From Aristaeella lactis (lineage in GTDB: Bacteria > Bacillota > Clostridia > Christensenellales > Aristaeellaceae): DNA of 64,000 nt. The notes beneath the pieces are model-generated. The model made no database searches. It was not told the DNA's origin and saw only the letters and a program-made list of their open reading frames with translations. The position numbers and the translations under genes are program-made. The stretch lies in NCBI RefSeq assembly GCF_018118585.1, contig NZ_CP069421.1:2914001-2978000 (forward strand). The letters are read 5' to 3'. Below, in pieces: positions 46,905-63,163 of this stretch. The stretch's first letter is position 1. Each line of letters starts with the position of its first letter.

Positions 46905-48377
46905 ATGAAAAGCAGTATGAAAAGCATATGCGGAATCGCAGCAGCGGTCATGACCCTGCTTTTCATCATTCTCTCCGGGACAGCAGAAGAGACGGGAGAA
47001 ACGATGTTAGTGGAAGCGGAAACAGGTGAACTGAAGGGACATACTGCCGTTGCCGGAAACGGCGGGAATCAGTGGGTGGAAGGCTTTAAAACTGCCGGGG
47101 AGGATTCTGTTTCGGTAGAGGTGCCGGTCTCCCGGGAAGGTTTTTATGATATCGCGGTTATCCAGGCAAGCCAGGGCGGGCACAAGGAAAACCCGGTGCT
47201 CCTGGACGGGCAGAATATCGGAAGCGCGGTTACAGATGAAACGACGTTCGGGAAAAGCGTGCTGGAACATATCTGGCTGTCCGCAGGTATGCATACCCTG
47301 GGTGTCGGTACCAGCTGGGGACATATCCGGCTGGACGGGTTTGAGCTGAAGCCTTCCGCTGCGCTGCCGGAGGACCTGTATACCGTTCCGGAAAAAATGT
47401 GCGTCGGCGAAGCCTCACCGGAAGCGCGGAAGCTGTATGACTGGCTGCGGGAATGCTACGGGAAAAAGATCCTTTCCGGCCAGCAGTGTGCCGGCGGAAT
47501 GTACGGAATGGAAAACCAGGCAATCTGGCGGGCAACGGGCGGTGATTATCCAGCGGTTCTCGGACTGGACATGATCGATTATTCTCCCAGCCGCGTGGAG
47601 CATGGCGGCGAGAGCGACAAGGCGGTCCCGTACGCGGTTGAATACTGGAACCAGGGCGGGATCGTGACCTTTTGCTGGCACTGGAACGCACCATCGCCCT
47701 ATCTGAAGGAACCCTGGTATTCGGGCTTTTATACCGAGCATACCAGCTTCAACCTGGGCAGGGTCATGAACGGAGAGGATGAAGAGGGATACCGGCTCCT
47801 GAACAGGGATATCGACGCGGTGGCGGCGCAGCTGCTGCGGCTGAAGGAAGCCGGGGTACCGGTGCTGTGGCGGCCGCTGCATGAGGCCAGCGGCGGGTGG
47901 TTCTGGTGGGGAGCCTCCGGAAAGGAAGCATACCTGAAACTGTATCACCTGCTGTTTGACCGGCTGACCCATGAATACGGCCTCAACAACCTGATCTGGA
48001 TCTGGAACGGACAGGATCCGGAGTGGTATCCGGGGGATGACGAGGTGGATATGATCGGCATCGACATCTATCCCGGGGAACGTGTTTATGATTCCCAGAG
48101 CGCGTCCTTCATACCGCTGACGCGGATCGCGGGGGAACGGAAGATGATCGTGCTGTCCGAGAACGGCTGCATTCCGGATCCGGAGCGGGTATTCCGGGAC
48201 GGAACTGTCTGGGGATACTGGTGCACCTGGGGCGGTGAATTTGTGCTTCGGAACACAAAATTCAACAAGCCTTCAGAGCAGTATACAGAATCGGATATGA
48301 TCCGGAAGGCCTATTCGGACATGCGGGTCGTGACCCGGAAGGATCTGCCCGATTTCCGCGCGGCGGACGGAGACTGA
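46905..48377 (+). CDS. secreted GH26 endo-beta-mannanase-like enzyme with N-terminal CBM
   Basis: 490 residues: signal peptide (about 1-27), CBM35/CBM6-like beta-sandwich (about 33-150, MLVEAETGELKGHTAV and HIRLDGFELKP), then a GH26 TIM barrel (about 165-470). Proton donor Glu 327 in WRPLHEASGGWFWWG and nucleophile Glu 419 in VLSENGCI are both present, as is HWNAPSPYL. GH26 enzymes are mostly beta-mannanases; a few cut other beta-linked glycans. GGGAGAG precedes ATG 46905. First gene of a cluster running to 63163, so its product oligosaccharides are probably the cargo of the importers behind it. Confidence 0.92.
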   Translation: MKSSMKSICGIAAAVMTLLFIILSGTAEETGETMLVEAETGELKGHTAVAGNGGNQWVEGFKTAGEDSVSVEVPVSREGFYDIAVIQASQGGHKENPVLLDGQNIGSAVTDETTFGKSVLEHIWLSAGMHTLGVGTSWGHIRLDGFELKPSAALPEDLYTVPEKMCVGEASPEARKLYDWLRECYGKKILSGQQCAGGMYGMENQAIWRATGGDYPAVLGLDMIDYSPSRVEHGGESDKAVPYAVEYWNQGGIVTFCWHWNAPSPYLKEPWYSGFYTEHTSFNLGRVMNGEDEEGYRLLNRDIDAVAAQLLRLKEAGVPVLWRPLHEASGGWFWWGASGKEAYLKLYHLLFDRLTHEYGLNNLIWIWNGQDPEWYPGDDEVDMIGIDIYPGERVYDSQSASFIPLTRIAGERKMIVLSENGCIPDPERVFRDGTVWGYWCTWGGEFVLRNTKFNKPSEQYTESDMIRKAYSDMRVVTRKDLPDFRAADGD

Positions 48378-48413
48378 GTCTGCCGCGTGCGAATGGACCG
48401 GAGGAAAGAACAA

Positions 48414-51398
48414 GTGAGAAAGAAAACGGGAATTGTGCTGGCGATGCTGCTGGCGCTGGCAGCCGGCACGGCGATGGCTGCCACCGATCTGGGTATCCGG
48501 GAGTATGAGGACCAGGTGAGCACTTATTCCATAAACCCGGACATTCCCTCCTATGCGGAATACTGCGCGGCCCATGGAACGGCGGCCCGGCCTGAAAAGG
48601 AGATCGTCCTGGAGGCGGCGGATACCGTCCGGTACGCGGAGGAAGGCGGAGAGAACACTCCCCTGCTGAAGGCACAGGCTGAAGGACGGGATGGAGTCTC
48701 GGTGCTGACGGGTGAGGAAGCGGTCATCGAGTGGGATTTTGAGGCTGAAGAGGCCGGGTGGTATGACCTGGAGGTGGAATACTATCCCTGGCCGGGGCGG
48801 AACGCTGAGATCCAGCGGGCTTTTTTCCTGGACGGTGCTCTTCCGTACAGGGAGCTTGCGCTGGTGAACTTTTCCCGGGTATGGCGGAACGACCTTCATC
48901 CGGAGATCGTCCGCAGCACGGCTGAGGACGGAACGGAAGAGATCCGCTGGCTCAGGGATAACCAGGGGAACGAACTGAAACCTTCTCCGGCGGAAGCGCC
49001 GGAGTGGCGCACTTCTCTCCTCCATGACTCAAACGGATATATCAGCGAAAGCCTGAAGCTTTACCTGGACCGGGGCGCGCATACGCTGACGGTGCTGTCC
49101 CTGCGAGAACCGATGCTGATCCGGCGTATGTGTTTCCGGGCGGGTACGGACGTGAAGCCGTATGCCCCGCCGGAAGCGGGCGGAGCCGCGAACCGGGTGA
49201 TCCGGATTGAGGCGGAAGCAGCGTCCGGCACCTCCTCCCAGATGCTGTACCCTGTGCAGGATCAGTCCTCCCGATCTGTTTCCCCGTCCAGCCCGAAGTA
49301 TCTGCTGAACAACAGCATCGGCGGCAACGCGTGGAAAAGCGCGGGACAGTGGATCGAGTGGCGCTTTTCCGTGCCGGAGGAAGGAAACTACGCGATCTCA
49401 CTTTACGATAAGCAGAATTTTATCCGCGGAACAGACGTGTACCGCAAGATCTATATTGACGGAGAAGTGCCGTTTGCCGAATTCCAGGCGGCCGCATTTC
49501 CCTATACCCAGGACTGGCGCCTGGAAACGCTGTCCGGGGAGCAGGGAGAACCGTACCTGATCCATCTGGCGGCAGGGGAACATACCCTGCGGATGGAGGT
49601 TGTACTGGGCGAAATGGCAGCTGTCATCCGGCAGGTGCAGGACTGTGTGCTGCAGCTGAACGGGATTTACCGGCAGGTGCTTTATATCACCGGTGTTTCG
49701 CCGGATCCGTACCGGGATTACCAGATCGAAAGAAGCCTGCCGGGACTGGAAGCACAGCTGCAAACGGTTAAGAAGGACCTGCGGTCGGCCATTGAGGCGC
49801 TGGAAAAAACAGCAGGACACCGGAGCGACAAGCTGACTGTGCTGAAGACGATGGATGACCAGCTGACAGAGCTGATCCGGGACCAGGAACGTTTCACCGA
49901 GGTGCTTTCTTCCTATAAGACTAACGTACGTGCCTGCGGCAATTGGATCACCCAGGTGCTGGGTCAGCCGCTGCAGATTGACAGGATCTTTGTCCATACC
50001 GCCGACGTCCGTCCGGAGATCAGCGGGACGGATTTCCTTTCCGGTACGGGTTTCGAATTATCCCGTTTATACAGCTCCTTCACTATCAATTACAACCAGA
50101 TCGGCAATGTGGCGGAGAAAACGGAGGACTCCCGGGTGATCACGCTGTGGGTCGGCACGGGACGGGACCAGGCCAATGTGATCAAAGCCCTGATCGACGA
50201 GCATTTTACGCCGAAGACCGGGATCAGCGTGAACGTCCAGCTGGTGGATATGAACACGCTGCTGCGCGCCACGCTGTCCGGCCAGGGGCCGGACGTGGCC
50301 ATTCAGGTTGCGAATACCACGGGGATCGCGGGCGCGGTGATGAATACCGGGAACGATACGCCGGTGAACTACGGCCTGCGCAACGCCGTTATGGATCTCA
50401 CGCAGTTTGATGATTTTGCCGAGGTGGCGGAGCGGTTCGCTCCGAGCGCCCTGGTTCCCTTCTCCTTTAACGGCGCGGCTTACGCGCTGCCGGACACGCA
50501 GACTTTCCCCATGATGTTCTACCGGAAGGACATCCTGGCTGAGATCGGCCTGGAAGTGCCGGAAACCTGGGACGACGTCAAGGTGGCCATGAGCGTGCTG
50601 AGCAAGAACCAGATGGAATTCGGCATGCTGCCCGGGGAGCAGACTTTTGCCATGCTGCTGTTCCAGGCCGGAGGCGAGTACTACACGGAGAACGGAGACG
50701 CGTCCGCACTGGACAGCGATATCGCGGTCAATGTGTTCCGCCGGTACTGCGATTTTTATACAGATTACAAGCTGGACATGGCCACCTCGGTGGAAGAACG
50801 CTTCCGTACGGGTGAATGCCCGATCATCATTACGGATTATACAACCTACAACAACCTGCAGGTATCCGCGCCGGATATCAAGGGACTGTGGGATTTCACC
50901 CATGTGCCCGGTACCCTCCGGGAAGACGGAACGCTGGACACAACAACCGGCTGCTCCGGTCTTGCGGATATCATCATGAGCGCGACAAAGGAACCGGAAG
51001 CCTGCTGGGAATTCCTGAAGTGGTGGACCGGCGCGGAGATCCAGACGCTGTACGGACGGGAAATGGAGTCACTGATGGGCGCCTCCGCACGGGTGGCCAC
51101 CGCGAACCTTGAAGCTCTGGCGGGACTGAACTGGCCCATCCGGGACTACCGGGAACTGGCAAAGCAGTTCAGCCATGTGAGGGGGATCCCCCAGGTGCCC
51201 GGCGGTTATTACACCTGGCGAAATGTGAACAACGCCTTCTACGCGGTGACTACGGGCAGCGCCAGCACGGGACGCACCGAGTTCGGCAATACGCCCCGTG
51301 AGGAACTGATGGACAAGATTTATTACATTAACGCGGAGATTACCTATAAACGGACAGAATTCGGACTGCCTGTCGCAGAAACAGGGGAGGGGAAATGA
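48414..51398 (+). CDS. giant solute-binding protein with carbohydrate-binding-like N-terminal region
   Basis: 994 residues from GTG 48414 (GGAGGAAAG upstream), giving signal peptide MRKKTGIVLAMLLALAAGTA with MAATD; earlier GTG/ATG codons lack a site. Layout: beta-sandwich 1 (about 60-255, VIEWDFEAEEAGWYDLEVEY), beta-sandwich 2 (about 260-430, IRIEAEAA and WIEWRFSVPEEGNYAISLYD), a helical/coiled-coil part (about 435-535, LEAQLQTVKKDLRSAIEALE), then a family-1 binding-protein domain (about 570-985: VITLWVGTGRDQANVI, GQGPDVAIQVANTTG, LPDTQTFPMMFYRKDIL). Most binding proteins are 400-550 residues. It is followed 1 bp later by its permeases. Substrate unknown, presumably a GH26 product. Confidence 0.88.
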   Translation: MRKKTGIVLAMLLALAAGTAMAATDLGIREYEDQVSTYSINPDIPSYAEYCAAHGTAARPEKEIVLEAADTVRYAEEGGENTPLLKAQAEGRDGVSVLTGEEAVIEWDFEAEEAGWYDLEVEYYPWPGRNAEIQRAFFLDGALPYRELALVNFSRVWRNDLHPEIVRSTAEDGTEEIRWLRDNQGNELKPSPAEAPEWRTSLLHDSNGYISESLKLYLDRGAHTLTVLSLREPMLIRRMCFRAGTDVKPYAPPEAGGAANRVIRIEAEAASGTSSQMLYPVQDQSSRSVSPSSPKYLLNNSIGGNAWKSAGQWIEWRFSVPEEGNYAISLYDKQNFIRGTDVYRKIYIDGEVPFAEFQAAAFPYTQDWRLETLSGEQGEPYLIHLAAGEHTLRMEVVLGEMAAVIRQVQDCVLQLNGIYRQVLYITGVSPDPYRDYQIERSLPGLEAQLQTVKKDLRSAIEALEKTAGHRSDKLTVLKTMDDQLTELIRDQERFTEVLSSYKTNVRACGNWITQVLGQPLQIDRIFVHTADVRPEISGTDFLSGTGFELSRLYSSFTINYNQIGNVAEKTEDSRVITLWVGTGRDQANVIKALIDEHFTPKTGISVNVQLVDMNTLLRATLSGQGPDVAIQVANTTGIAGAVMNTGNDTPVNYGLRNAVMDLTQFDDFAEVAERFAPSALVPFSFNGAAYALPDTQTFPMMFYRKDILAEIGLEVPETWDDVKVAMSVLSKNQMEFGMLPGEQTFAMLLFQAGGEYYTENGDASALDSDIAVNVFRRYCDFYTDYKLDMATSVEERFRTGECPIIITDYTTYNNLQVSAPDIKGLWDFTHVPGTLREDGTLDTTTGCSGLADIIMSATKEPEACWEFLKWWTGAEIQTLYGREMESLMGASARVATANLEALAGLNWPIRDYRELAKQFSHVRGIPQVPGGYYTWRNVNNAFYAVTTGSASTGRTEFGNTPREELMDKIYYINAEITYKRTEFGLPVAETGEGK

Positions 51399-51399
51399 G

Positions 51400-52332
51400 A
51401 TGAGCATGGCAATCCGGAACGGACGGAGCATGCGGAAAAAGGATACCCTGTGGCATCAGGTCCGGATCAACAGGGCATCCTACCTGCTGATGGCGCCGTA
51501 TTTTACCCTGTTTTTCCTCTTTACAGTGCTGCCCGTGCTGATGTCTGTTTACCTGTCGTTCAACTATTTCAACATGCTGGAGATGCCCCGCTGGGTCGGC
51601 TGGGCCAATTATATCAAGCTTCTGCTGGAGGATGATATTTTCATCATCTCCCTGCGGAATACCCTGCTATTCGCCGTGGTGACCGGACCGGTCAGCTATC
51701 TGCTGTGCCTGCTGTTTGCATGGATCATCAATGAGTTCAGGCCGAAAGTGCGGGCTTTTCTGACGCTTGTTTTCTATGCGCCGTCCATCTGCGGCAACGC
51801 GTATATGATCTGGAACCTGATCCTGACAGGCGACCGGTACGGATACCTGAACGGCATTCTGCTGCGGACGGGTATCCTGAACGAGCCGATCCTCTGGATG
51901 CAAACCGAAAAGTTTGTCATGCCGGTGCTGATCGTTGTACAGCTGTGGCTGTCCCTGGGAACCGGCTTCCTGTCCTTTATCGCAGGCCTGCAGACGGTGG
52001 ACAAGGGCCTCTATGAAGCGGCGGCGATCGACGGTGTGAAGAACCGGTGGCAGGAACTGTGGTTTGTGACCCTGCCCGCGATGAAGCCGCAGCTGATGTT
52101 CGGCGCGGTGATGCAGATCACGCAGTCTTTTGCCGTGGCGGATATCTCCATTGCGCTGGCGGGCAATCCGTCGGTCAATTATTCCGGTGCGACCATTGTG
52201 ACCCATCTGCTGGATTACGGTTCCACCCGGCTGGATATGGGGTATGCCTCGGCGATCGCGACAATCCTGTTCCTGCTGATGGTGGGAACAAACAAGCTGG
52301 TGCAGCGGATTCTCAGAAGGGTGGGTGAATGA
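51400..52332 (+). CDS. sugar ABC permease, MalF/UgpA type
   Basis: 310-residue six-helix permease; LLMAPYFTLFFLFTVLPVLMSVYLS is the first membrane segment and YEAAAIDGVKNRWQELWFVTLPAM the EAA loop (about residues 204-227). ATG 51400 follows GGGGAGGGG. The binding-protein stop lies 1 bp upstream and the partner permease overlaps the end by 4 bases, so the binding protein and both permeases form one unit. Confidence 0.93.
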   Translation: MSMAIRNGRSMRKKDTLWHQVRINRASYLLMAPYFTLFFLFTVLPVLMSVYLSFNYFNMLEMPRWVGWANYIKLLLEDDIFIISLRNTLLFAVVTGPVSYLLCLLFAWIINEFRPKVRAFLTLVFYAPSICGNAYMIWNLILTGDRYGYLNGILLRTGILNEPILWMQTEKFVMPVLIVVQLWLSLGTGFLSFIAGLQTVDKGLYEAAAIDGVKNRWQELWFVTLPAMKPQLMFGAVMQITQSFAVADISIALAGNPSVNYSGATIVTHLLDYGSTRLDMGYASAIATILFLLMVGTNKLVQRILRRVGE

Positions 52333-53318
52333 CCGGTATGGAAAAGGCAAAGATCAGCCGGCTGCTTCCCCGCATGCCGCACCGGAAACCTGCGGAGCTG
52401 AGCCCCGAGGAGGAAACAGCCCTGCGGCAGAAGCGCCTGGCGAAGATCTACCGGAAAATGAAACGGCAGTCCGGAAAGAAAAAACTGAACCGGTCCACGG
52501 CCGGCAACGCGGTTCTGTTTATCCTGATGGGGATCTGCGGCGTGTTTATGGTCCTGCCGCTGGTCATGATCCTCAACAACGCGGTGAAGCCGCTGGACGA
52601 ACTGTACCAGTATCCGCCGAGGATCTTTGTGCGGAATCCCACGCTGAATAACTTCACAGACCTGTATGTGCTGCTGAATGAAAGCTGGGTTCCGTTCTCC
52701 CGGTATATCCTGAATACCATCATCATTACGGTTGGGGGAATGACCGGTCATGTGATCATCGCGTCCATGGCGGCCTATCCCCTGGCCAAGAATCATTTTC
52801 CCGGCAAAAAGATCCTGTTTTCCGTGGTTGTACTGTCCATGATGTTCTCCTGGACGGTGACCCAGATTCCGCAGTACCTGATCATCTCCTGGCTTGGGAT
52901 CAACAACACCTATGCCGCGCTGGTGCTGCCGGCATGGTCTTTCGGCATGGGCCTGTACCTGATGAAGCAGTTCATGGAGCAGCTGCCGGATTCCCTGATG
53001 GAAAGCGCACGGCTGCAGGGCGCCAATGAATGGCAGATCTTCTGGCGGATCGTGATGCCGAACGTGAAGCCGGCCTGGCTCACGCTGGCGATCTTCCAGT
53101 TCCAGCAGATGTGGGCCAATACGGGCAGCATGTTCCTGCGTTCCGAGGAGCTGAAGCCCCTGCAGTACGCCCTGCAGCAGATTACTTCCGGCGGTGTGAG
53201 CCGGGCGGGCGCCGGGGCGGCAGTGACCTTCCTGATCGCGGCGGTCCCGATCATCTTTTTCCTGATCTGCCAGAGCTCGATCATGGAGACCATGACGACC
53301 TCCGGCATGAAGGACTGA
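52329..53318 (+). CDS. sugar ABC permease, MalG type, with extended N-terminus
   Basis: 329-residue permease. A charged cytoplasmic N-terminal extension of about 55 residues (ELSPEEETALRQKRLAKIYRK) precedes the first helix (AVLFILMGICGVFMVLPLVM). EAA-type loop is MESARLQGANEWQIFWRIVMP (about 220-240), with Ser-Ala replacing the usual Glu-Ala-Ala. ATGA overlap with the preceding permease. Followed 11 bp later by the NHL protein gene. Confidence 0.92.
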   Translation: MTGMEKAKISRLLPRMPHRKPAELSPEEETALRQKRLAKIYRKMKRQSGKKKLNRSTAGNAVLFILMGICGVFMVLPLVMILNNAVKPLDELYQYPPRIFVRNPTLNNFTDLYVLLNESWVPFSRYILNTIIITVGGMTGHVIIASMAAYPLAKNHFPGKKILFSVVVLSMMFSWTVTQIPQYLIISWLGINNTYAALVLPAWSFGMGLYLMKQFMEQLPDSLMESARLQGANEWQIFWRIVMPNVKPAWLTLAIFQFQQMWANTGSMFLRSEELKPLQYALQQITSGGVSRAGAGAAVTFLIAAVPIIFFLICQSSIMETMTTSGMKD

Positions 53319-53329: not shown

Positions 53330-54811
53330 ATGAAGCAAGTGAAACGGATCCTGTGCCTGATGCTTCTGGCCTGCCTGGCCGCGGGAAGCGCGTGCGCCGC
53401 GGATTCCCTGCCGTATGACTGTTACAACTATGACCACTGGAACAATATCCTGTATACCCCGGCGCCTTACGTTCCGGACGGACTGGTCAGCGGTGCCACG
53501 CTCAGGCTGGAAGGGGAGCCTGTCGGCGCCTTCCGGAATCCCCAGGACCTGTGCGTGTCGGCGGACGGGGATGTGTATATCGCGGATACCGGGAACAACC
53601 GGATCGTGGTGCTGGCGCCGGACCTGAAGACGGTCAGGCGGATCATCACCGGCTTTGAGGCGGAGGGCGGCACGCAGACATTCAACGCGCCTACCGGCGT
53701 CGCACTGTCGGAAAAACACAGGCTGTATATCGCGGACAGCCTGAACCGCCGGATCGTTGTGCTTGAACCGGACGGAACCTTTGTCAAGTATGTGCGGGAC
53801 CCGCAGAGCGAGGTGCTGGACGAGGGCTATGTGTTCACTCCCCTGCGGGTGTCTGTGGATTACGCGGACCGGGTCTATGTGATCGCACAGAACATGTTCC
53901 AGGGCATCATGGTTTTCAGCGGGGAAGGAGATTTCACCGGCTTTTTCGGAACGATCAGCGTGAAGATCTCCCTGTGGGAAAAGTTCTGGCGCAAGCTGGC
54001 GACCAAGGAGGAGCGGAGCAAACAGCAGCTGTTTATTCCCACTGAATTTACCGGTATCGATGTGGATGACGAAGGCTTTGTTTACGCGTCCAGCAAGGAT
54101 ACGGACGGCCTGCAGGCTGTCCGCCGGCTGAATCCGAAGGGTGAAGACGTGATCCGGAAGGGCCCCCGCGGAAATCTGGGCGGTGACCGGGTGTTCGGTT
54201 CGGTCGGCAACTATGCCGGCCCAAGCCAGATCGTGGACGTGGTGTACCGCGGCCACGGGGCTTATTCCCTGCTGGACAGCCGGCGGGGCAGGATCTTTAC
54301 CTATGACCATGAAGGAAACCTGCTGTACATCTTTGGCGGCATCGGCACGCAGGCCGGGACCTTCCAGACGCCCGCGGCCATTGAGAAGCTGGGAAGCAGC
54401 CTGCTCGTCCTGGATTCCCAGCAGGGGAACCTGACTGTATTCGCAGAGACGGAATACGGCGCCCTGATCAACCGGGCGGTCAGCCTGCGGTTTGACGGGG
54501 ATGAAAGCCAGGCGGTTCCGCTGTGGCAGGAAGTGCTGCGGCTGGACGAGATCAACGAACTGGCGAATACCGGGATCGGCAAGGCCTACCTGTCCGCGGG
54601 AGACAACGCGAACGCCATGCTGTACCTGCGGCGCGGAATGAACCGGGAGTATTACTCCGTCGCCTTTAAGCGGTGGAGGAATGAACGGCTGCGGAACAAT
54701 ATCAGCCTGATCCTTTCCGGCGTTGTCGCTGCGGCTGCACTGGCCGTGCTCTGGGTGAAGGCGGTCCGGCCGGCGATCCGCAAAAAAGGGAAGAGGAGGG
54801 ATCCGTCATGA
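53330..54811 (+). CDS. NHL-repeat beta-propeller membrane protein
   Basis: 493 residues. N-terminal signal sequence MKQVKRILCLMLLACLAAGSACAAD, then NHL-type propeller blades (about 45-370): PQDLCVSADGDVYIADTGNNRIVVL, PTGVALSEKHRLYIADSLNRRIVVL, FTGIDVDDEGFVYASSKDTDG. A TPR-like helical segment (about 400-455, LWQEVLRLDEINELANTGIGKAYLSAG) and a C-terminal membrane helix (about 465-483) with basic tail follow. It should be displayed outside the membrane, perhaps as a scaffold or glycan binder for the importer. GGAGGCGG precedes ATG 53330. Overlaps the YIP1 gene by 4 bases. Confidence 0.85.
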   Translation: MKQVKRILCLMLLACLAAGSACAADSLPYDCYNYDHWNNILYTPAPYVPDGLVSGATLRLEGEPVGAFRNPQDLCVSADGDVYIADTGNNRIVVLAPDLKTVRRIITGFEAEGGTQTFNAPTGVALSEKHRLYIADSLNRRIVVLEPDGTFVKYVRDPQSEVLDEGYVFTPLRVSVDYADRVYVIAQNMFQGIMVFSGEGDFTGFFGTISVKISLWEKFWRKLATKEERSKQQLFIPTEFTGIDVDDEGFVYASSKDTDGLQAVRRLNPKGEDVIRKGPRGNLGGDRVFGSVGNYAGPSQIVDVVYRGHGAYSLLDSRRGRIFTYDHEGNLLYIFGGIGTQAGTFQTPAAIEKLGSSLLVLDSQQGNLTVFAETEYGALINRAVSLRFDGDESQAVPLWQEVLRLDEINELANTGIGKAYLSAGDNANAMLYLRRGMNREYYSVAFKRWRNERLRNNISLILSGVVAAAALAVLWVKAVRPAIRKKGKRRDPS

Positions 54812-55440
54812 ACCGGATGGGAATCAAGGACAAATGGCAGCATTTTTTCCATACGGTCAGCCATCCGGCAGACGGGTATTACTGGATCCGGCATCAGGAA
54901 AAGGGCAGCCTGTGGATCGCCTTCCTGATGGTGCTCCTGTACGGAATCGTGTTCTCCATGAACCGGATCTCTTCCAGCTTTATTGTCAACGATATTGAGC
55001 CCCGCACCGTGAACCTGCCGGCGGAGCTGGCAGGCGTCATTCTGCTGTATCTCATCCTCTGTGTCGGCAACTGGTCCGTGACCTGCCTGATGGACGGAGA
55101 GGGAAGGTTTAAAGACATCCTGATCGCAGCGGGTTACGCCTTGTTTCCCATGATGGCGGCCACCGCGGCGGCGACGGCTGTTTCCCACCTGGTGGCGGAG
55201 AATGAGGAGGCGTTCTACACCCTGCTGATCGGCCTGGGTACGGCCTACACCGTGATCATGCTGGTGATCGGGATCATGCAGGTACATAACTATACCTTCG
55301 GTAAAACGCTGATCACACTGTTTCTGACGGTGGTGGCGATGCTGATCATTATTTTCCTGGGACTGCTGGTGATCAATTTCATTACGCAGGTGTATTCGTT
55401 TTTCCGGGGGATCTATATGGAACTGATTTTCCGTGTGTAA
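54808..55440 (+). CDS. YIP1-family membrane protein
   Basis: 210 residues with five predicted helices (LWIAFLMVLLYGIVFSM, LAGVILLYLILCVGNW, ILIAAGYALFPMMAATAAAT, and two more at the C-terminus). DGEGRFKDILIAAGYALFP is the family core. Bacterial YIP1 proteins have no assigned activity. Translationally coupled to the NHL protein (ATGA), so the two likely form a membrane complex beside the permeases. Confidence 0.85.
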   Translation: MNRMGIKDKWQHFFHTVSHPADGYYWIRHQEKGSLWIAFLMVLLYGIVFSMNRISSSFIVNDIEPRTVNLPAELAGVILLYLILCVGNWSVTCLMDGEGRFKDILIAAGYALFPMMAATAAATAVSHLVAENEEAFYTLLIGLGTAYTVIMLVIGIMQVHNYTFGKTLITLFLTVVAMLIIIFLGLLVINFITQVYSFFRGIYMELIFRV

Positions 55441-55454: not shown

Positions 55455-58046
55455 ATGAATGAGAAAAACAGGCTGACCCTCCCGACCGCCTTCCGGCGTG
55501 TACTGTGGATCATCGCGGGCCTGGCTGCGGCTGCCGCGGTGCTGTTCCTTGCCCGGTACGTGATCCACTACCGGGCGTATGACGAGTACCGTCAGTATAT
55601 TGTTCAGCCCGCGGCGAAAACGGAAGCGGAAGCCCTGAAGCCCCTGAAGGATCCGGAGAACGCAGTGCCGGGATTCGTTCTCGCGGCACAGAATGACCGG
55701 CTGGGACTCTACCTGAAGGAAAAAACCGCGGAGATCGCGCTGTATGACAGGAAGAGCGGGCTGACCGTCTATTCCAATCCGCAGGACGCGGCAGATGACC
55801 CGGTGGCCCGGTCCGGACTGAACCAGGCAAACCTGAAGAGCCAGTTTATCCTGAACTACCTGGATACAAACTCCCGGGAAGGTACACCCTGGAGCTCCTA
55901 CGCCAAGTGCGTGGAGAACGGGCAGATTGAATACCTTCAGCTGGAAAACGGTTTCCGGGCGGTTTATACACTGTCCAATGAAAAGCTGATGCTTGTACCG
56001 CAGCAGATGACGGCGGAATGGTACGGCATCCTGTCGGCTTCCGGAAAGAAGCAGGCGGCCAAATCCTATGTTCTGGATGAGGAAACCGGTCTGTATGTGC
56101 TGAAGTCCCAGGGCGTCACGGCCCGCCACCGTCAGCAGATCGACGCGGACGCGCGCAAGGCCGGTTTCACCATGGAGGATTACGCGGAGATGCAGGCGCT
56201 GGCAGAGGAAGAGGAATCCGAAGCGGCGGAAAGCACTTCCTTTGTGGTTGCCCTGGATTACACGCTGACGCCGGATGGGCTGACGGTCACCATCCCCCAC
56301 GCGGAACTCGCGGAGACGGGCGGGGCAAAGATCCGGACCATCCAGCTGCTGCCGTTCTTCGGCGCGGCCGGTACGGCGGAGAAGGGTGTGATCGTGGTTC
56401 CCGACGGCAGCGGCGCCTTGATCCGTTTCAACAACGGCAAGAATACCGCGCCCCAGTATAACCAGAACATTTATGACCTGGATCTGATCGACAGCGATAT
56501 TACCGCCACGCAGAATATGCAGTCCGCCAGGCTGGCGCTTTTCGGCATCTGCCGGGAGGACTGCGGCCTGCTGGTCTCCTGCGGCAGAGGCGCGGCACTG
56601 GCGTCTGTCACCGCGGATGTGGCGGGAAGGAACAACAGCTATAACTACGCCTACTTTACCTTCGGCCTGAGACGGACCGATACCCTGATGGTGGCCGGAG
56701 AGGAAGCGATCGTGGCGGAACAGGATTCCTACCCGGTGGACTGCGCCGTATTCTACCGGATCCTGGACGGGGAATATACCGGCTATAACGGACTGGCAAG
56801 GGCTGTGCGGGAATCCCTGCTCGCGGACGGCAGCCTGACACTGAAAACGGAAAAGTCCGGCGATATCCCCTTCTACTGCGACATTCTCTGCGGCGTTCGG
56901 GAAACGGCGCACTGGATGGGTGTTCAGTATCTCCGGGTTATGCCGATGACGACCTTCGCCCAGGCGGAGGAGATTTTGTCCGGGCTCCGTCAGGAGCAGG
57001 TAGGGAACCTGCGGGTGAACCTGCAGGGCTGGATGAACGGCGGATATTACCACGATCCGGTGAACCACGTCTCTGTGCAGGGCGGACTCGGCGGGGAAAG
57101 AGGATTGCAAAGCCTGCGCGCGGCAGCCGCTGAAACCGGAGGAAAGATTTATCCGGACGCAGCCCTGCAGCAGGTGACCGAGATCGCGAAAGGATTCCTG
57201 CGCAGCGAGGAAGCCAGCCGGTATTACGCCAAGGGCTATGTGGCGGAATTCGGTACCGTCAGTCCGGTTTCCATGAGGCGTACGGCCACCATGGGATTTA
57301 CGGAGCGGGCGTATATGCTCCTGTCCCCCCGTTTCCTGCCCCGGTATGCCGCCAGTCTGGCATCGGCGGCGGAGCGGCTGGGCCTGGACGCGCTTTCACT
57401 CCGGGACCTGGGAAACGAGGTCCATGCGGACAAGCGGCGGACGAACGTCATCAGCCGCGAAGCGGACCTGGACCTGGTCAGGCATGCCTTCGGCGTTATT
57501 GGCGCCGGAAAGCGTGAACTGATGGTTTCCGGCGGCAACGATTACAGCTTCCCCTATGTCCGGCACGTGATCAACGCGCCGGTGGAGGCGACGATGTTCG
57601 CTATTGTGGATGAGCAGATTCCGCTATGGGAGATGATCATCCACGGTTCGGCTGATTACTGCGGCTCGCCGCTGAACCTGATGCAGAGCGAGGACCGGCG
57701 GGCAGCCCTGCTGCACCTGATCGAATACGGCGCGTCAACGCACTACACATTTACCTGGCAGGACGCGGCGGATATGAAGTACACCGGGCTGAACAACAAT
57801 TACGCCACGACCTTCTCTTCATGGAAGGAGGAGGCAGCGGAAAGCTACCGCTTTGTGAACGGAGCGCTGGCTGGGGTGAGCGGCGCGGAGATGCTCCGGC
57901 ATGACCGGCTCAGCGATACGCTGGCCCGCGTGACGTATTCCAACGGCACGGTGCTGTATGTGAACAGCGGGGAGCATGAAGCTGAGGCGGACGGATACCG
58001 GATCCCGGCAATGGATTATCTGGCGGTCGGAGGAGAAAACGAATGA
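55455..58046 (+). CDS. large membrane-anchored DUF5696-type protein
   Basis: 863 residues. One N-terminal transmembrane helix (about 17-36, VLWIIAGLAAAAAVLFLARYV), the rest extracellular. Beta-rich first half (about 60-440: NDRLGLYLKEKTAEIALYDR, VVPDGSGALIRFNNGK) and a probable TIM-barrel second half (about 460-800: RVMPMTTFAQAEEILSGLRQ, VNLQGWMNGGYYHDPVNHVS, SLRDLGNEVHADKRR, YGASTHYTFTWQDAADM). I assign it to DUF5696 from memory of such clusters; enzymatic activity is not established, though the fold is glycosidase-like. GGAGGGAATGC precedes ATG 55455. ATGA overlap with the next permease. Confidence 0.75.
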   Translation: MNEKNRLTLPTAFRRVLWIIAGLAAAAAVLFLARYVIHYRAYDEYRQYIVQPAAKTEAEALKPLKDPENAVPGFVLAAQNDRLGLYLKEKTAEIALYDRKSGLTVYSNPQDAADDPVARSGLNQANLKSQFILNYLDTNSREGTPWSSYAKCVENGQIEYLQLENGFRAVYTLSNEKLMLVPQQMTAEWYGILSASGKKQAAKSYVLDEETGLYVLKSQGVTARHRQQIDADARKAGFTMEDYAEMQALAEEEESEAAESTSFVVALDYTLTPDGLTVTIPHAELAETGGAKIRTIQLLPFFGAAGTAEKGVIVVPDGSGALIRFNNGKNTAPQYNQNIYDLDLIDSDITATQNMQSARLALFGICREDCGLLVSCGRGAALASVTADVAGRNNSYNYAYFTFGLRRTDTLMVAGEEAIVAEQDSYPVDCAVFYRILDGEYTGYNGLARAVRESLLADGSLTLKTEKSGDIPFYCDILCGVRETAHWMGVQYLRVMPMTTFAQAEEILSGLRQEQVGNLRVNLQGWMNGGYYHDPVNHVSVQGGLGGERGLQSLRAAAAETGGKIYPDAALQQVTEIAKGFLRSEEASRYYAKGYVAEFGTVSPVSMRRTATMGFTERAYMLLSPRFLPRYAASLASAAERLGLDALSLRDLGNEVHADKRRTNVISREADLDLVRHAFGVIGAGKRELMVSGGNDYSFPYVRHVINAPVEATMFAIVDEQIPLWEMIIHGSADYCGSPLNLMQSEDRRAALLHLIEYGASTHYTFTWQDAADMKYTGLNNNYATTFSSWKEEAAESYRFVNGALAGVSGAEMLRHDRLSDTLARVTYSNGTVLYVNSGEHEAEADGYRIPAMDYLAVGGENE

Positions 58047-58969
58047 CTGGCATCCGCAGAAAAAACCGTATTTTTCATCTTTCCTATGAGCAGAGGAACG
58101 CCGTGCGCGGATACTGGTTCATCCTTCCGTGGCTGATCGGCTTCCTGGTGTTTTATGCCGGGTGCCTGGTGCAGCTGGGAGAATTCAGCCTGTCCCGGAT
58201 CGGCCTGGACGCCGCTACGGGTATGACAAAGGAGTATATCGGCTTCGGCAATTATATCGAGGCATTCACAAGCCACGCCACCTTCAAGCAGACACTGACA
58301 TCCTCTGTGATGGATATGCTGATCGACCTGCCGATGATCCTGTTCTTCAGCCTTTTTGTGGCGATGCTCCTGAACCGGAAGTTCAAAGGCAGGGCACTGG
58401 TACGCGCGATCTTCTTCCTGCCGATTATCCTGAGCGCGGACGCGGTGGGCTCCGCCATCACCCGGGCGACGGAACTGGTGAATGCCGGCGTGTCCTCCGC
58501 AAACCTGGAAACCGCGCAGGCGGGGACCGTCTCCGTAGCCTATTACATGCAGCTTTTCGGCGACCTGGCCATTCCGGAATCCGTGCTTGGCTACATTGTG
58601 GATGCGGTGAACCGGATCTCGTCCATCATCAAGGGATCGGGCGTGCAGATCATCCTGTTCATCGCGGCGCTGCAGTCCATTCCGGGTTCCCTGTATGAGG
58701 TGGCCCGCATTGAAGGAGCGACAGGGTATGAATCCTTCTGGAAGGTGACTTTTCCCATGGTTATGCCGCACATGATCACAAACACGATCTACACGGTCGT
58801 GGACCGGTTTTCCTCCAGTGAGGTGATCAGACTGGCAACGCGCACTTACAAGGAACTGTACAACTACGGCCTGTCGTCAGCGTTCTCTGTGGTCTCGACA
58901 CTGATCACCATCCTGATCCTGGGGCTGATCGTTTACCTGCTGAACCGGCGGACCTTCTATTACAACTGA
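58043..58969 (+). CDS. sugar ABC permease, second pair, MalF type
   Basis: 308-residue six-helix permease; YWFILPWLIGFLVFYAGCLVQ is the first helix and YEVARIEGATGYESFWKVTFPMV the EAA loop (about 218-240), with Val-Ala-Arg in place of Ala-Ala. Contains an extracellular stretch ELVNAGVSSANLETAQAG between helices that is longer than usual. Coupled to the DUF5696 gene by ATGA overlap, which ties that protein to transport. Confidence 0.92.
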   Translation: MTGIRRKNRIFHLSYEQRNAVRGYWFILPWLIGFLVFYAGCLVQLGEFSLSRIGLDAATGMTKEYIGFGNYIEAFTSHATFKQTLTSSVMDMLIDLPMILFFSLFVAMLLNRKFKGRALVRAIFFLPIILSADAVGSAITRATELVNAGVSSANLETAQAGTVSVAYYMQLFGDLAIPESVLGYIVDAVNRISSIIKGSGVQIILFIAALQSIPGSLYEVARIEGATGYESFWKVTFPMVMPHMITNTIYTVVDRFSSSEVIRLATRTYKELYNYGLSSAFSVVSTLITILILGLIVYLLNRRTFYYN

Positions 58970-58989
58970 CGGGAGGAGGGAGAAAGAAC

Positions 58990-59994
58990 ATGCAGACAAT
59001 CCATCCGGCACAGAACGGAAAAATCACCTGGCAGGGATTCCGGAATTCTCCCGCCTACGCCAATCAGCGGGATAAAACCCTGAACGGGATGAAGAACCTG
59101 GTGATCGGTCTTTTCCGGCTGATCGTGATCGCCGGGATCAGCTATGTCATTCTCGCTCCGGTGATCAATATCATCTCGAACTCCTTCTTTTCCCGGCAGG
59201 ACTCCATTAACCCCATGGTATTCACGATCCCGATCAACCCGACGCTGGAACGCTATAGCATGGCAGTCAAATACCTGAATTACCTGCCCATTCTGGGCAA
59301 TACGATTCTGTATGTGTTCGGGGTGACCCTGATCCAGCTGCTGATCTGCTCCATGGTCGGTTACGGTTTTGCCCGTTTCCGCTTTCCGCTGAAGAGCGTG
59401 CTTTTTGCTTTTGTGCTTGTGATGATCGTCATTCCGCTGAATACGATCCAGTTCCCGCTTTATACGACCTTCCGCTTCTTTAATCCCCTGGGAATTGTAG
59501 GACTTTTCAACGGTGGGAAGACGATCAACCTGCTGCAGACCGCCTGGCCGACGTTCATCATGTCCGTTTTCGGCTGCGGCCTGCGGTCCGGCCTGTACAT
59601 CTATATCTTCAACCAGTTCTTCCGCGGCCTGCCGAAGGAGATTGAGGAGGCGGCCCTGGTGGACGGCGCCGGCACAGCCCGGACGTTTTTCACCATCATG
59701 ATGCCCAATGCGGCTCCGGCGGTCATTACGGTTGCCGTGTTCTCCATCGTCTGGCAGTACAACGATTCCTTTTTTGCCAACACCTTCAACATTTCCGATT
59801 CCATCCTCGTGACCAGGAAGCTGGAATCGCTGATCAACGTGATCGCCAATGCGGAAAAGGTGCTGACCATCCGCGAACAGCAGCTGTATTTTGACGCCGG
59901 CGTGGTTCTGGTCCTGGTGCCGGTGGTGGTGATCTACCTGGTGCTGCAGCGGCGGTTTATCGAGGGCGTGGAACGTTCCGGTATTGTGGGCTGA
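58990..59994 (+). CDS. sugar ABC permease, second pair, MalG type
   Basis: 334-residue permease with a polar N-terminal tail of about 35 residues before the first helix (LVIGLFRLIVIAGISYVILAPV). EAA loop EEAALVDGAGTARTFFTIMMPN near residues 218-239. ATG 58990 follows GGAGGAGGGAG. Its binding protein is probably the one encoded at 61796, with the repeat protein in between. Confidence 0.92.
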   Translation: MQTIHPAQNGKITWQGFRNSPAYANQRDKTLNGMKNLVIGLFRLIVIAGISYVILAPVINIISNSFFSRQDSINPMVFTIPINPTLERYSMAVKYLNYLPILGNTILYVFGVTLIQLLICSMVGYGFARFRFPLKSVLFAFVLVMIVIPLNTIQFPLYTTFRFFNPLGIVGLFNGGKTINLLQTAWPTFIMSVFGCGLRSGLYIYIFNQFFRGLPKEIEEAALVDGAGTARTFFTIMMPNAAPAVITVAVFSIVWQYNDSFFANTFNISDSILVTRKLESLINVIANAEKVLTIREQQLYFDAGVVLVLVPVVVIYLVLQRRFIEGVERSGIVG

Positions 59995-60013
59995 GCCCGC
60001 TTTCAATTGTTAA

Positions 60014-60031
60014 TTACCCGGGATCGGGTAA
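60014..60031 (+). other. small hairpin in front of the repeat-protein gene
   Basis: 7-bp stem TTACCCG / CGGGTAA with GGAT loop followed by an A-rich stretch and GGAGG. A likely mRNA-stability or processing hairpin separating membrane from secreted-protein genes; A run rather than T run follows, so not a terminator on this strand. Confidence 0.5.
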
Positions 60032-60053
60032 AAAATAAAAGGAGGAAAGTCCT

Positions 60054-61763
60054 GTGAAGAAACTCATTTCCTGGTTGCTGGTTGCCGTTATGGCAGTCGG
60101 TATGTGCTCCTGGGCGTCTGCCGATCCGGTGAACGCGCTTGACTTCGAAGACGGCGTTTTTGCCTTCCTCGGTGTTTCCGCTGCGAAACCGAACGCAGAT
60201 GCCTCAACGGCCCTGGAGGTTGTTGACTACAACGGCTCCAAGGCACTGCGCGTTGCCGCGCAGGGAATCCCCTATGTGGCCCTGAACCTGGAGGGCCTGG
60301 CCGGCGAAAAGCTGGCTGACGTTGCCGCTGTCACGTTTGACATCGGTGTTGACAAGGCCGCGGACGGCAAGTTCTACGCGGTCTCCGGCGTGGTATACAG
60401 CTACACCGGCGAGAACGCGGATGAGAACAAGGCCGACTGGTCTGTCTATCTGGAAAAGAAAAATCCGCGCAATGTAAAGATTCAGTTCAAGGCGCCGCTT
60501 GTTGCCGGCGCGGGCAACTACATCATGATCTCCAGGGAAGACCAGGCCGGCGGAGAACCCGCGACCTTCTACCTGGACAACATTCAGTTCCTGGACGCGG
60601 AAGGAAACGCGATCGCCCTGGATCCGACTGCGGAATATGTGTCGGAGGCTTCCGAAAAGGATCTGAGCAACCTTGTTGCCCTGACGAACGCCGTTGAATT
60701 CCCGGATTTCCACAAGTCTGCCGGTGCCTGGGCACAGGACGGCCTGGAAATGCCGCAGGAGATTATTGATGCGCTGGTGCCCGGCTCCGTGGTGGAAGTG
60801 GAATACGCGAGTGCGGACGGCTCCATGTGGATCGTCATGCCCTGGGCAACCGCCGGCTGGATGCGTGTCGGCCAGGGAACTGCTGCCATCAACAACAGCA
60901 AGACCATTGCCCAGATTCCCTATGAGATGATCGAAGCCCTCTGCGGTGAAGACAAATCCACCTGGGGTGCCATGCTGCAGTGCGAAAGCGCTTCCGACTG
61001 GGAAGTCTTTGCCGTGCGCGTGGGTCAGCGGGCAAACCGGATCGTGCTGAAGAACGCGGTTGAATTCCCCGGCTTTACCAAGTCCGCTGACGCCTGGGCG
61101 CAGGACGGCCTGGAAATGCCGCAGGAGATCATTGACGCGCTGGTGCCCGGCTCTGTGGTGGAGATCACCTACAGCTCCGAGGACGGCGATATCTGGCTGG
61201 TCATGCCCTGGGCGGAAGCCGGCTGGATGCGCGTGTCCCAGGGAACCGCTGCCAAGATGGGCGGCAAGGCCTATATCACCTATGAAGAGATCGCTGCGCT
61301 GTGCGGTGAGGACAAGTCCACCTGGGGCGCCATGATGCAGTGCGAAGGCTCCTCTCCCTGGGAGGTTTACGGCATCCGCGTGGGCCAGAAGGCAGAGTTC
61401 TTCGGCCTGACCAACCTGGTTGAATTCCCCGGCTTCACCAAGTCCGCTGACGCCTGGGCGCAGGACGGCCTGGAAATGCCCCAGGAGATCATCGACGCCC
61501 TGGTTCCCGGCAGCGTTGTGACCATCTCCTATGAATCCGAAGACGGCAATATGTGGCTGGTCATGCCCTGGGCAGCCGCCGGCTGGATGCGCGTTGGCAA
61601 CGACGGCGCGGACGTGGCGGACGGCAAAATCGCGCAGGTGACTTATGAACAGATCGAAGCCCTCTGCGGCGAGGACAAGTCCACCTGGGGCGCCATGATG
61701 CAGTGCGAAAGCTCCTCCCCCTGGAATGTTTATGCTGTGGCCGTGGGCCAGGCGATCAAATGA
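60054..61763 (+). CDS. secreted protein with three tandem ~120-residue repeats
   Basis: 569 residues. Signal peptide MKKLISWLLVAVMAVGMCSW then ASAD; N-terminal jelly-roll-like domain (about 25-195, LDFEDGVFAFLG and FYLDNIQFLD, as in carbohydrate-binding modules). Then three near-identical repeats starting at residues 212, 334 and 454, each with WAQDGLEMPQEIIDALVPGS, VMPWAxAGWMRV and CGEDKSTWGAMxQCE. Each repeat has five Trp/Cys-rich positions including two Cys, suggesting Trp-lined ligand sites. No lipobox, sortase signal or membrane helix seen. GTG 60054 with GGAGG 8 bases upstream. Function unknown; glycan binding is inference. Confidence 0.8.
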   Translation: MKKLISWLLVAVMAVGMCSWASADPVNALDFEDGVFAFLGVSAAKPNADASTALEVVDYNGSKALRVAAQGIPYVALNLEGLAGEKLADVAAVTFDIGVDKAADGKFYAVSGVVYSYTGENADENKADWSVYLEKKNPRNVKIQFKAPLVAGAGNYIMISREDQAGGEPATFYLDNIQFLDAEGNAIALDPTAEYVSEASEKDLSNLVALTNAVEFPDFHKSAGAWAQDGLEMPQEIIDALVPGSVVEVEYASADGSMWIVMPWATAGWMRVGQGTAAINNSKTIAQIPYEMIEALCGEDKSTWGAMLQCESASDWEVFAVRVGQRANRIVLKNAVEFPGFTKSADAWAQDGLEMPQEIIDALVPGSVVEITYSSEDGDIWLVMPWAEAGWMRVSQGTAAKMGGKAYITYEEIAALCGEDKSTWGAMMQCEGSSPWEVYGIRVGQKAEFFGLTNLVEFPGFTKSADAWAQDGLEMPQEIIDALVPGSVVTISYESEDGNMWLVMPWAAAGWMRVGNDGADVADGKIAQVTYEQIEALCGEDKSTWGAMMQCESSSPWNVYAVAVGQAIK

Positions 61764-61795
61764 TGACCTGATTTCTGGAAAGGAGAAACTGACTT

Positions 61796-63163
61796 ATGAA
61801 AAAAATAACAGCAATGCTGCTGGTTCTGGCTATGGCGCTTTCCATGGCTGTAACGGCGCTGGCGGAAGATCCCCGGAACATTACCATCGGTCTCTGGTGG
61901 GACATCTACTATGACTCCAATGACGAATCCTGGGAAGACAATGAAGCCGCGACCGGCAAGGATTCCGATCTCATGCGTTTCGACAATGTGAAGAACATTG
62001 AGAACACCTATGGCGTGACCTATGAGTTCCAGAACCTGACCTATGCCGGCGTGCAGGATTCCGTGAACAACTCCATCCTGGCCGGTGAACCGGACTGTGA
62101 CGTGTACATGGTGGAGCTGGGCTGGGGCGTTCCCGCCGTCATGAACGGCTATGCCATGGACCTGCGGGAAGTCCTGGATCCCGATGATCCGCTGCTCACC
62201 CATAACGACACCGTCATGAATTATGTGGCGCTGGAAAGCGGCGCTGTCTCCCTGCTCACCGTCAACGGCGCAGAGGACCAGGTGGCCGCCACCTATCCCC
62301 TGGCTTTCAACCTGCAGATGATCGAGGAAGCCAACCTGGAGGATCCCCGGGACCTGGCTGCCCGCGGCGAGTGGACCTGGGACAAGTTCCGGGAGTACTG
62401 CATTGCCCTGACCAAGGACAACGACGGCGACGGCGTCACGGATGTTTACGGCTACGGCGCCTGGATCACGGACTGCCTGCCTTACTGGTATATGTCCAAC
62501 GGCACAACGCTGGCCTCCTCTCCCAAGGAGAACCTCTCCTCTGTGGAGATGGGTGAAACCCTGAAGTTCCTGCAGGATCTGTGGCTCACGGACAAGGCGG
62601 CCTATCCGCTGCCCGAGGAGAACGGCTGGGATGTCTGCCGCTGGCTGTACCGTGACAAGAAGGTGGCCTTCACCACCACCGCTGCCTGGATCATGGCCAA
62701 CTATGACGACTATAACTGGGACGGCAAGGCCGAAACCACCCTGGACTTCGACATGGTCTTTGTGGATTACCCCATCGGACCTCACGGCAACGCGGAAACG
62801 AACGCCACAAAGATCGCGGCCGGCAGCTTCTACTTCATCCCCGTCGGCATCGAGAATCCGAAGCTGGTCTATGATGTTTTCCGCGCCTACCAGAACTGGT
62901 ATCATGACGACACTGCCCTCCGGGATGATCCGGAAGAGCTGGAGTGGTGGTACACCACCACGTCCGACAAGCTGGACCTCCAGGAGTGGAACTTTGAAAT
63001 CATGAAGAAGATGGGCGAAAAGACGGTGGTCGACTTTGCCGGCACCGTGCTGGGAGAGATGCCGCTGGTGGAATTCATCAACGGCGACCTGACCCCCGCC
63101 CAGCTGCAGGAGGAATACAAGCAGGTGGTTCAGGATACCCTGGACCAGATTTTCGGAGCCTGA
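61796..63163 (+). CDS. secreted sugar-binding protein of the GH26 cluster
   Basis: 455-residue family-1 binding protein. Signal peptide MKKITAMLLVLAMALSMAVT with ALAED as the cleavage region, no lipobox. Core motifs: ITIGLWWDIYYDS, LAGEPDCDVYMVELGWGVPAVM, WTWDKFREYCIALTKDNDGDGVTDVYGYGAW (the DxDxDG calcium-type loop common in this family), and KVAFTTTAAWIMANYDD. AAAGGAG precedes ATG 61796. Probably serves the permeases at 58043/58990. Last gene of the cluster, closed by a terminator. Confidence 0.92.
   Translation: MKKITAMLLVLAMALSMAVTALAEDPRNITIGLWWDIYYDSNDESWEDNEAATGKDSDLMRFDNVKNIENTYGVTYEFQNLTYAGVQDSVNNSILAGEPDCDVYMVELGWGVPAVMNGYAMDLREVLDPDDPLLTHNDTVMNYVALESGAVSLLTVNGAEDQVAATYPLAFNLQMIEEANLEDPRDLAARGEWTWDKFREYCIALTKDNDGDGVTDVYGYGAWITDCLPYWYMSNGTTLASSPKENLSSVEMGETLKFLQDLWLTDKAAYPLPEENGWDVCRWLYRDKKVAFTTTAAWIMANYDDYNWDGKAETTLDFDMVFVDYPIGPHGNAETNATKIAAGSFYFIPVGIENPKLVYDVFRAYQNWYHDDTALRDDPEELEWWYTTTSDKLDLQEWNFEIMKKMGEKTVVDFAGTVLGEMPLVEFINGDLTPAQLQEEYKQVVQDTLDQIFGA

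Follow-up and report, generated by a model that had tools for sequence, protein, structure and literature searches.

Results

Gene content and layout of the locus

We have analysed a 64,000-nucleotide stretch of the 3.45-Mb genome of Aristaeella lactis (C1:2914001-2978000, hereafter the window), and in particular a probable gene cluster for glycan uptake at its positions 46905-63163. The cluster consists of eleven genes, all on the plus strand, in the order GH26, gSBP, PermA1, PermB1, NHL, YIP1, DUF5696, PermA2, PermB2, CBM65 and SBP2, where gSBP and SBP2 are a giant and a second solute-binding protein (SBP), and PermA and PermB are the permeases of importers 1 and 2. An earlier note on this DNA had spoken of ten genes, although its own list holds eleven; its description of plus-strand genes with overlaps or short gaps stands, with intergenic distances from -4 to 59 nt. 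Overlaps of 4 nt are found at PermA1/PermB1 and, as the note had pointed out, at NHL/YIP1 and DUF5696/PermA2.

The first gene (46905-48377) encodes a secreted GH26 protein with a CBM35 module (Pfam E-values 6.3e-71 and 5e-15). It is followed by gSBP (48387-51398), a protein of 1003 residues in which the Pfam SBP_bac_1 match is confined to the C-terminal part (598-886), the N-terminal half being without a clear family. In the predicted structure of gSBP (predicted local distance difference test, pLDDT, 78.7), two strand-rich regions span about 73-251 and 271-406 and are followed by helices at 410-525, with the SBP part starting near residue 583; a fold search listed 50 matches headed by SBPs and SBP fusions. 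Weak Pfam matches resembling carbohydrate-binding modules occur in gSBP relatives, namely GH115_C in 12/35 (best 2.6e-7) and Golvesin_C in 16/35 (best 1.1e-4); in the window gSBP itself Golvesin_C reached only 0.06, which is under any cut-off. According to our own rules for lipoboxes and helices, which are crude, 7 of 138 gSBPs carry a lipobox versus 61 of 130 SBP2s. Since the lipobox is so rarely present, gSBP may be held by its own N-terminal helix or by a complex.

Next come the permeases of importer 1, PermA1 (51400-52332, BPD_transp_1 5.6e-8) and PermB1 (52329-53318, 2.9e-16). The NHL gene (53330-54811) encodes a propeller with a TPR-like region, an N-terminal signal-like helix and a C-terminal membrane helix (NHL matches from 8.4e-14 to 3e-13), and its profile matched both TPR and Pizza/NHL proteins among solved structures. 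For this gene the start at 53330 is more likely, as a longer frame from 53030 overlaps PermB1. It is followed by a Yip1-domain membrane protein with five helices (54808-55440, Pfam Yip1 2.9e-16). As the C-terminal tail of the NHL protein is basic and the chain runs on into Yip1 in the fused forms described below, this arrangement suggests that the propeller lies outside the membrane and the NHL-Yip1 joint inside. The DUF5696 gene (55455-58046, Pfam 5.5e-184) encodes one N-terminal membrane helix and a predicted extracytoplasmic GH129/GH101-like barrel, and the closest named relatives of its product come from Clostridia metagenome-assembled genomes of the goat omasum (86% and 78%). Importer 2 is represented by PermA2 (58043-58969, BPD_transp_1 1.3e-11) and PermB2 (58990-59994, 2.9e-12).

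The last two genes encode a secreted protein (60054-61763) and SBP2 (61796-63163, SBP_bac_1 3.4e-9). The former had been counted among the unknowns as a triple-repeat protein, a label that we had to drop: it contains CBM65_1 modules in three stretches (1.2e-68; score 228.8 bits, cut-off 25), that is, it belongs to a known carbohydrate-binding family, one associated with binding of beta-1,4-glucan or xyloglucan. A phmmer search of this protein against solved structures gave 0 matches at E 0.1. The importers are all of the SBP-dependent kind. The block itself lacks an ATPase gene; elsewhere in the genome, two ATPases of UgpC type score over the cut-off. None of the eleven genes encodes a regulator; AraC-type genes lie on the other strand (40639-41544 and 35137-37404), and LacI or other regulators adjoin the block in some relatives.

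The layout is that of one predicted operon. About 60 nt 5' of GH26 there is a promoter-like TTGACA-17-TAAAAT (46817-46845, plus strand, 11/12 consensus matches). Terminator-like hairpins from a pattern scan, each with a T-rich tail, stand on the plus strand both 5' of it, after a GH28 gene (46604-46626, 9 pairs, 7 GC), and 3' of SBP2 (63189-63218, 13 pairs, 7 GC). Because of the promoter-like site and the hairpins on both sides, the cluster limits of the earlier note fit the predicted operon. All these sites are consensus matches only; as a class, terminator-like sites number 32 in the window, compared with 14.4 in shuffled sequences.

Conservation of the eight-gene core

To describe the surroundings of related genes we have used 161 neighbourhoods including the window. 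Set 1 comprises the window and 80 loci picked by hand from the listed matches, mostly high-scoring and on contigs with room, while set 2 comprises the best 80 of 574 confirmed loci and leans to the GH26 type of the window. The two sets share three loci (L052=L143, L062=L204, L110=L215), so that 158 are distinct, and several further loci are near-identical to one another. The denominators below are the loci with enough flank, and those of set 1 include the window.

In most of the 160 other neighbourhoods, the order gSBP-PermA-PermB-NHL-YIP1-DUF5696-PermA-PermB recurs. NHL lies immediately 5' of YIP1-DUF5696 in 80/80 loci of set 1 and 69/69 of set 2 (149/149 together). YIP1 was found 5' of DUF5696 by open reading frames (ORFs) in 79/81 and 70/72 loci, respectively, and the four misses were recovered by tblastn. 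A permease pair follows DUF5696 in 75/78 and 74/74 loci, the misses being L118, L136 and L139. As for the upstream part, gSBP is in the block in 67/70 loci of set 1 (in 4 of them downstream) and 52/52 of set 2, and both the A and the B permease upstream were called by ORF in 59/70 and 50/52. The shortfalls of the upstream pair are made up of four rearranged loci, three without the block, and six with one or both permeases uncalled.

In addition, NHL and YIP1 are fused into one protein in 21/81 loci of set 1 and in 12/20 further loci, while 0/80 fusions were seen in set 2. Four fused proteins were scanned, and both Pfam Yip1 and NHL were found in them, the NHL match of L138 being just below the cut-off. 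Overall, the eight-gene core is a conserved unit.

Several observations at individual loci may be added here. In the window genome, both Yip1 matches sit in two such modules, and after the second module (L033, C1:1283500-1303000) come genes for a xylanase-type GH10 enzyme that carries CBM4_9, for a signal peptidase S26-like protein and for a sortase-like protein. In L193, a DUF624 membrane protein of about 212 residues is encoded between GH26 and gSBP (L193:2336-2974); in many relatives of Lachnospiraceae type, the same place is occupied by open frames of 188-276 residues with 3-5 helices, of which only that of L193 was scanned. In L066, a 2538-residue open frame (L066:5119-12735) contains DUF5696 at the usual position in the block.

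Two importer lineages

We have built FastTree trees of the permeases for all 81 loci of set 1 and every third number of set 2, taking as the root a window permease that is encoded outside the cluster. Among the A permeases, the 102 downstream ones form one clade (support 0.951) and the 96 upstream or gSBP-adjacent ones another (0.835), with no exception. The B permeases behave in the same way: 101 downstream (0.989) and 91 upstream or gSBP-adjacent ones (0.771) are in separate clades, again with no exception, and each of the four permeases of the window falls into its own clade. That is, each permease pair is a lineage of its own and has been inherited together with the block.

The four rearranged loci (L117, L121, L133 and L134) are informative in this respect. 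Here the genes are arranged exactly or almost as SBP2-[NHL+YIP1]-DUF5696-A-B-gSBP-A-B, and those permeases that adjoin gSBP remain in the upstream clade. Therefore, from the rearranged loci and the clades together, gSBP goes with pair 1, and NHL-YIP1-DUF5696 with pair 2. The synteny counts, the NHL-YIP1 fusion and the permease trees led us to reject the idea that two importers came to be adjacent by accident.

Distribution and co-occurrence of YIP1 and DUF5696

The DUF5696 family (PF18952) was found in 113/200 genomes sampled from the family of the window, in 55/195 genomes of a class sample (47 over the cut-off) and in 52/398 of a phylum sample (43 over the cut-off), while it reached the cut-off in 0/14 well-known control genomes. 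This last result may explain why the module has been overlooked.

The reverse test started from YIP1, whose profile matched 97/200 family genomes. Among the 150 YIP1 matches listed, 129 are no more than 2.5 kb from a listed DUF5696. Twenty of the 21 remaining matches were fetched (G009:C24 was left out): 19 adjoin DUF5696, and one is at a contig edge. In the class sample, Pfam Yip1 lies within 5 kb of 52/57 strong DUF5696 places. The earlier note had tied the genes without an assigned function to transport, and had named homologues standing mostly apart from importer genes as the observation that would speak against this. Neither the neighbourhoods nor the reverse YIP1 test revealed such a pattern; according to the synteny counts and the permease clades, importer genes are present with few exceptions.

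Predicted fold and catalytic positions of the DUF5696 protein

The DUF5696 protein of the window matches the Pfam profile over positions 5-612 with 613.5 bits (curated cut-off 25.6). Its predicted structure (pLDDT 88.2, predicted template-modelling score 0.86) was searched with Foldseek, and GH129-type structures came first (5OPQ 6.5e-31; 5WZN 5.1e-27), then GH101 and GH36. On the NagBb structure 5WZN, the model reaches a TM-score of 0.69 on the target, so that the NagBb fold appears to be matched, although the identity to 5OPQ and 5WZN is 13-14%. A profile of 25 diverse members agrees with the GH129-type match (1.7e-12, 6.1e-11), while a closer 40-member profile gave only 0.03. In 151 genomes of the order, the GH129 family PF11308 itself gave only 3 weak matches. 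Judged from the models, DUF5696 is thus predicted to be a membrane-anchored GH129/GH101-like barrel.

We have then counted the residues at the catalytic positions in 159 module proteins of 690-1100 residues, for which L066 and L216 were dropped. The window protein has D651 at the nucleophile position and S692 at the position of the second carboxylate; N695, an earlier candidate for the latter, was rejected since the short relatives described below put the position at residue 692. Both carboxylates are present in 4 module proteins, Asp only in 132, Glu only in 8 and neither in 15; for the 156 distinct proteins, the numbers are 4, 129, 8 and 15. Two other acidic residues, D719 and D659, are each kept in 147/159.

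Eleven short relatives (L260-L270; 565-676 residues, from weaker matches) are different. As a profile they match NagBb at 6.6e-103, and Asp and Glu stand at the counted NagBb positions 435 and 478 in 11/11. In the class sample, places of this short type have a Yip1 neighbour in 0/8 cases. From their sequences, these proteins look like GH129-type enzymes filed under a DUF. Glu478 we take to be the second catalytic residue of NagBb. Asp435 is described as one of the two (PMC5698469; this and the other published accounts are cited here from parts of their text). The same source describes the GH129-like ZGAL_3152, in which of the NagBb pair only Asp435 is conserved, as an active galactosidase needing other acidic residues. 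For this reason we do not accept that DUF5696 must be dead as its second carboxylate is gone, and both catalytic and non-catalytic readings are kept. Catalysis is possible in most DUF5696 module members and less likely in the 23 without the Asp.

Probable substrate and flanking enzymes

The nearest solved chains of the window GH26 are beta-mannanases (3zm8, a GH26 endo-beta-1,4-mannanase, 3e-84; 6hpf, 8.6e-84). In L. phytofermentans KNHs2131 (L193), the genes after the orthologous block encode GH130, a GDSL esterase and an AGE-type epimerase. GH130, esterase and epimerase are enzyme classes that the account of the Roseburia beta-mannan loci names (PMC6385246). For C. phytofermentans, all three GH26 enzymes are reported in the cited text to be active on beta-mannan (PMC4230839). 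Given the GH26 type here and the GH130 and epimerase in the orthologous locus, the substrate of the window operon is most likely beta-mannan, probably of plant origin.

The core itself looks general and not tied to mannan, because the flanking enzyme families vary between loci. Elsewhere we have found GH10, GH30, GH106, GH31, apiosidase-like enzymes, GH35/GH42, GH3, GH43, GH38, and GH28 with melibiase, and some scanned neighbours of other loci are not glycan enzymes. A switch of importer 2 linked to the substrate is not supported: at equal PermA1 identity, the ratio of PermA2 to PermA1 identity does not differ between loci with and without GH26 nearby.

Discussion

Comparison with known systems

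In the polysaccharide-utilisation loci (PULs) of Bacteroidota, a conserved capture-and-import core, the TonB-dependent outer-membrane pair SusC/SusD, is combined with varying enzymes. Our module has inner-membrane ATP-binding cassette (ABC) importers instead; none of the eleven proteins has a SusC/SusD-like Pfam match, and we claim no sequence relation. Gram-positive PULs (gpPULs) have been defined by a polysaccharide-degrading enzyme, a carbohydrate transport system and a transcriptional regulator in one locus (Sheridan et al. 2016, PMC5320581). The window operon has the enzyme (GH26) and the transport system (two SBPs and two permease pairs). The earlier note's counterpart of a PUL agrees with the definition in these two elements; a regulator is absent among the eleven genes. 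As in the gpPULs of that account, a degrading enzyme adjoins an ABC sugar importer and the enzymes vary by locus. What the cited parts of the account do not mention is a fixed core of eight genes as in the module, in which two importers are combined with NHL, Yip1 and DUF5696. The beta-mannan loci of Roseburia intestinalis resemble it by a GH26 mannanase, an SBP, two permeases, GH130, an epimerase and esterases, but one importer is named there (one SBP, two permeases), and NHL is not mentioned in the main text, as far as this source is covered here (La Rosa et al. 2019, PMC6385246).

Two individual proteins have known counterparts. In YknWXYZ of Bacillus, a Yip1-family membrane protein, YknW, likewise stands with an ABC transporter and modulates its assembly; that system differs in being an exporter with a membrane-fusion protein and its own ATPase, and in having no SBP, according to the cited part of its description (PMC4887032). 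With the GH129/GH101 alpha-N-acetylgalactosaminidases (NagBb, 5WZN) and the GH129-like 3,6-anhydro-D-galactosidase 5OPQ, DUF5696 shares the predicted fold and, in most members, the beta-4 Asp; it differs from them by its N-terminal membrane helix, the low identity given above and the second NagBb carboxylate missing in 147/159.

The cluster had been put forward as a candidate for an undescribed system, and we agree: in the open-licence literature (subscription papers, preprints and supplements lie outside this scope), no description of the block and no mention of DUF5696 was found in the text portions covered. The words NHL and Yip1 are also absent from the main text of the C. phytofermentans genome and Paenibacillus JDR-2 papers. 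We conclude that the module is one of the Gram-positive loci for glycan uptake, with a fixed core that is as yet undescribed.

Proposed mechanism and alternative explanations

We are inclined to regard the window operon as the beta-mannan version of a conserved module for glycan uptake with two importers, a reading that we consider probable, though by no means secure. Compared with the interpretation first given to this DNA, the linkage to importers has held, now with two inherited pairs, and the unknown triple-repeat protein has not; what is refined is the substrate, most likely beta-mannan, and the likely nature of DUF5696 as a GH129/GH101-like barrel. Outside the membrane, the GH26/CBM35 enzyme would cut the polysaccharide, which the triple-CBM65 protein would hold. 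The released oligosaccharides would be collected by gSBP and SBP2 and handed to permease pairs 1 and 2, respectively, and a shared ATPase of UgpC/MsmX type, encoded elsewhere, would drive both importers. DUF5696, tethered by one helix beside pair 2, would trim or grip oligosaccharides before import. By analogy with YknW as a modulator of ABC transporter assembly, Yip1, together with the NHL-TPR propeller, could assemble and hold both importers and DUF5696 together.

A bolder version of this is that the eight genes make up one inner-membrane machine, a functional Bacillota counterpart of the SusCD 'utilisome'. In such a machine, a Yip1-NHL-TPR hub would dock two different type-I importers and a tethered GH129-derived barrel, so that one glycan would be captured, trimmed and imported in one complex. 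Exchange of the enzymes, of SBP2 and of DUF5696 would adapt this machine to many other glycans. We put this forward tentatively, and would sooner expect it to fail in part than to hold in full.

Several observations weigh against the uptake module as we have drawn it. Concerning the operon, promoter-like sites as a class are not enriched in the window (5 found, 8.0 in shuffles), and a further, weaker hairpin at 59986-60000, between PermB2 and the CBM65 gene, could cause termination or attenuation of the message before the latter. Concerning the core, gSBP and its pair are missing from the fetched stretch in 3/70 loci (L108, L109, L114). In the class sample, 5/57 strong DUF5696 places are without Yip1 within 5 kb, and 26/78 Yip1 matches over the cut-off lie away from DUF5696, which means that the Yip1 family is broader than the module. 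In DUF5696, the second GH129 carboxylate is missing in 147/159 module proteins and the nucleophile-position Asp in 23/159, and there is no GH130 beside the operon in the window. Finally, when 133 loci are binned by identity, PermA1 and PermB1 show the highest mean conservation of all the proteins in each bin, whatever the flanking enzymes, which is as compatible with a constant ligand as with a shared glycan.

The question of DUF5696 is the closest one. It may be a GH129-like barrel without catalytic function, whose only part in the module is to bind glycans or to act as a scaffold, with everything else as proposed above, and we would give this nearly even standing, leaning slightly to the other side. 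Both carboxylates are kept in only 4/159 module proteins versus 11/11 short relatives, and the gene stays in place where the protein has neither (15/159); yet the nucleophile-position Asp is kept in 136/159, D719 and D659 are well kept, and ZGAL_3152, with only Asp435 of the pair, is described as active (PMC5698469). The conservation of pair 1, with or without GH26, and its behaviour as a separable block with gSBP in rearranged loci would also fit a division of labour, in which importer 1 and NHL-YIP1 have a constant job, such as sensing or uptake of one common ligand, and the glycan particular to each locus is left to importer 2 together with DUF5696 and SBP2. As no substrate-linked switch of importer 2 is seen and a slower rate alone accounts for the numbers, we think this unlikely.

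Two further explanations have very little in their favour. That the operon is an ordinary Gram-positive PUL, in which the importers are unrelated to each other and further genes have hitch-hiked, agrees with its content, which covers most of the published gpPUL definition, but is already contradicted by the synteny in 161 neighbourhoods, the NHL-YIP1 fusion and the clean permease clades, and is highly improbable. Just as improbable is a role in export or envelope assembly, with Yip1 and the ABC permeases carrying some cargo outward: bacterial Yip1-family proteins are indeed found with ABC exporters in the cited parts of two studies (PMC4887032, PMC10707071), but here the permeases are of importer type, there are two SBPs, the eleven genes include no ATPase or membrane-fusion protein, and glycoside hydrolases flank the core.

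If the uptake module is indeed a general glycan uptake core, its genes would serve as a set of markers for glycan loci among Bacillota of the rumen, gut and soil, it would predict which importers and binding proteins pair up, and bacterial Yip1 proteins beside importers would gain a testable role. Pfam DUF5696 would then unite two kinds of protein: short GH129-like ones with an intact catalytic pair, and tethered relatives that are mostly without it.

Neighbouring regions and further observations

The upstream region 34285-46585 is another carbohydrate cluster. Its minus strand encodes GH43, regulators of AraC type, one SBP and a further two permeases; then follow, on the plus strand, an MGH1-like glycoside hydrolase and GH28. 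Beyond the terminator-like hairpin of the operon, a HAD-like hydrolase gene lies on the minus strand (63235-63843).

The hexamer GTTAAC was considered as a general operator mark and rejected, since at least 2 copies upstream of GH26 are found in only 3/42 GH26 loci. In the window, 4 of its 5 copies (46704-46876) flank the promoter-like site of the operon. Paired GTTAAC occurs at five places in the genome, compared with 2 for a backward control. One pair (C1:1946640-1946657, in L258) comes after the genes for an SBP and two permeases and directly precedes those for an AGE-family epimerase and a LacI protein; the pairs before the operon and before epimerase/LacI give a hint of a shared regulon.

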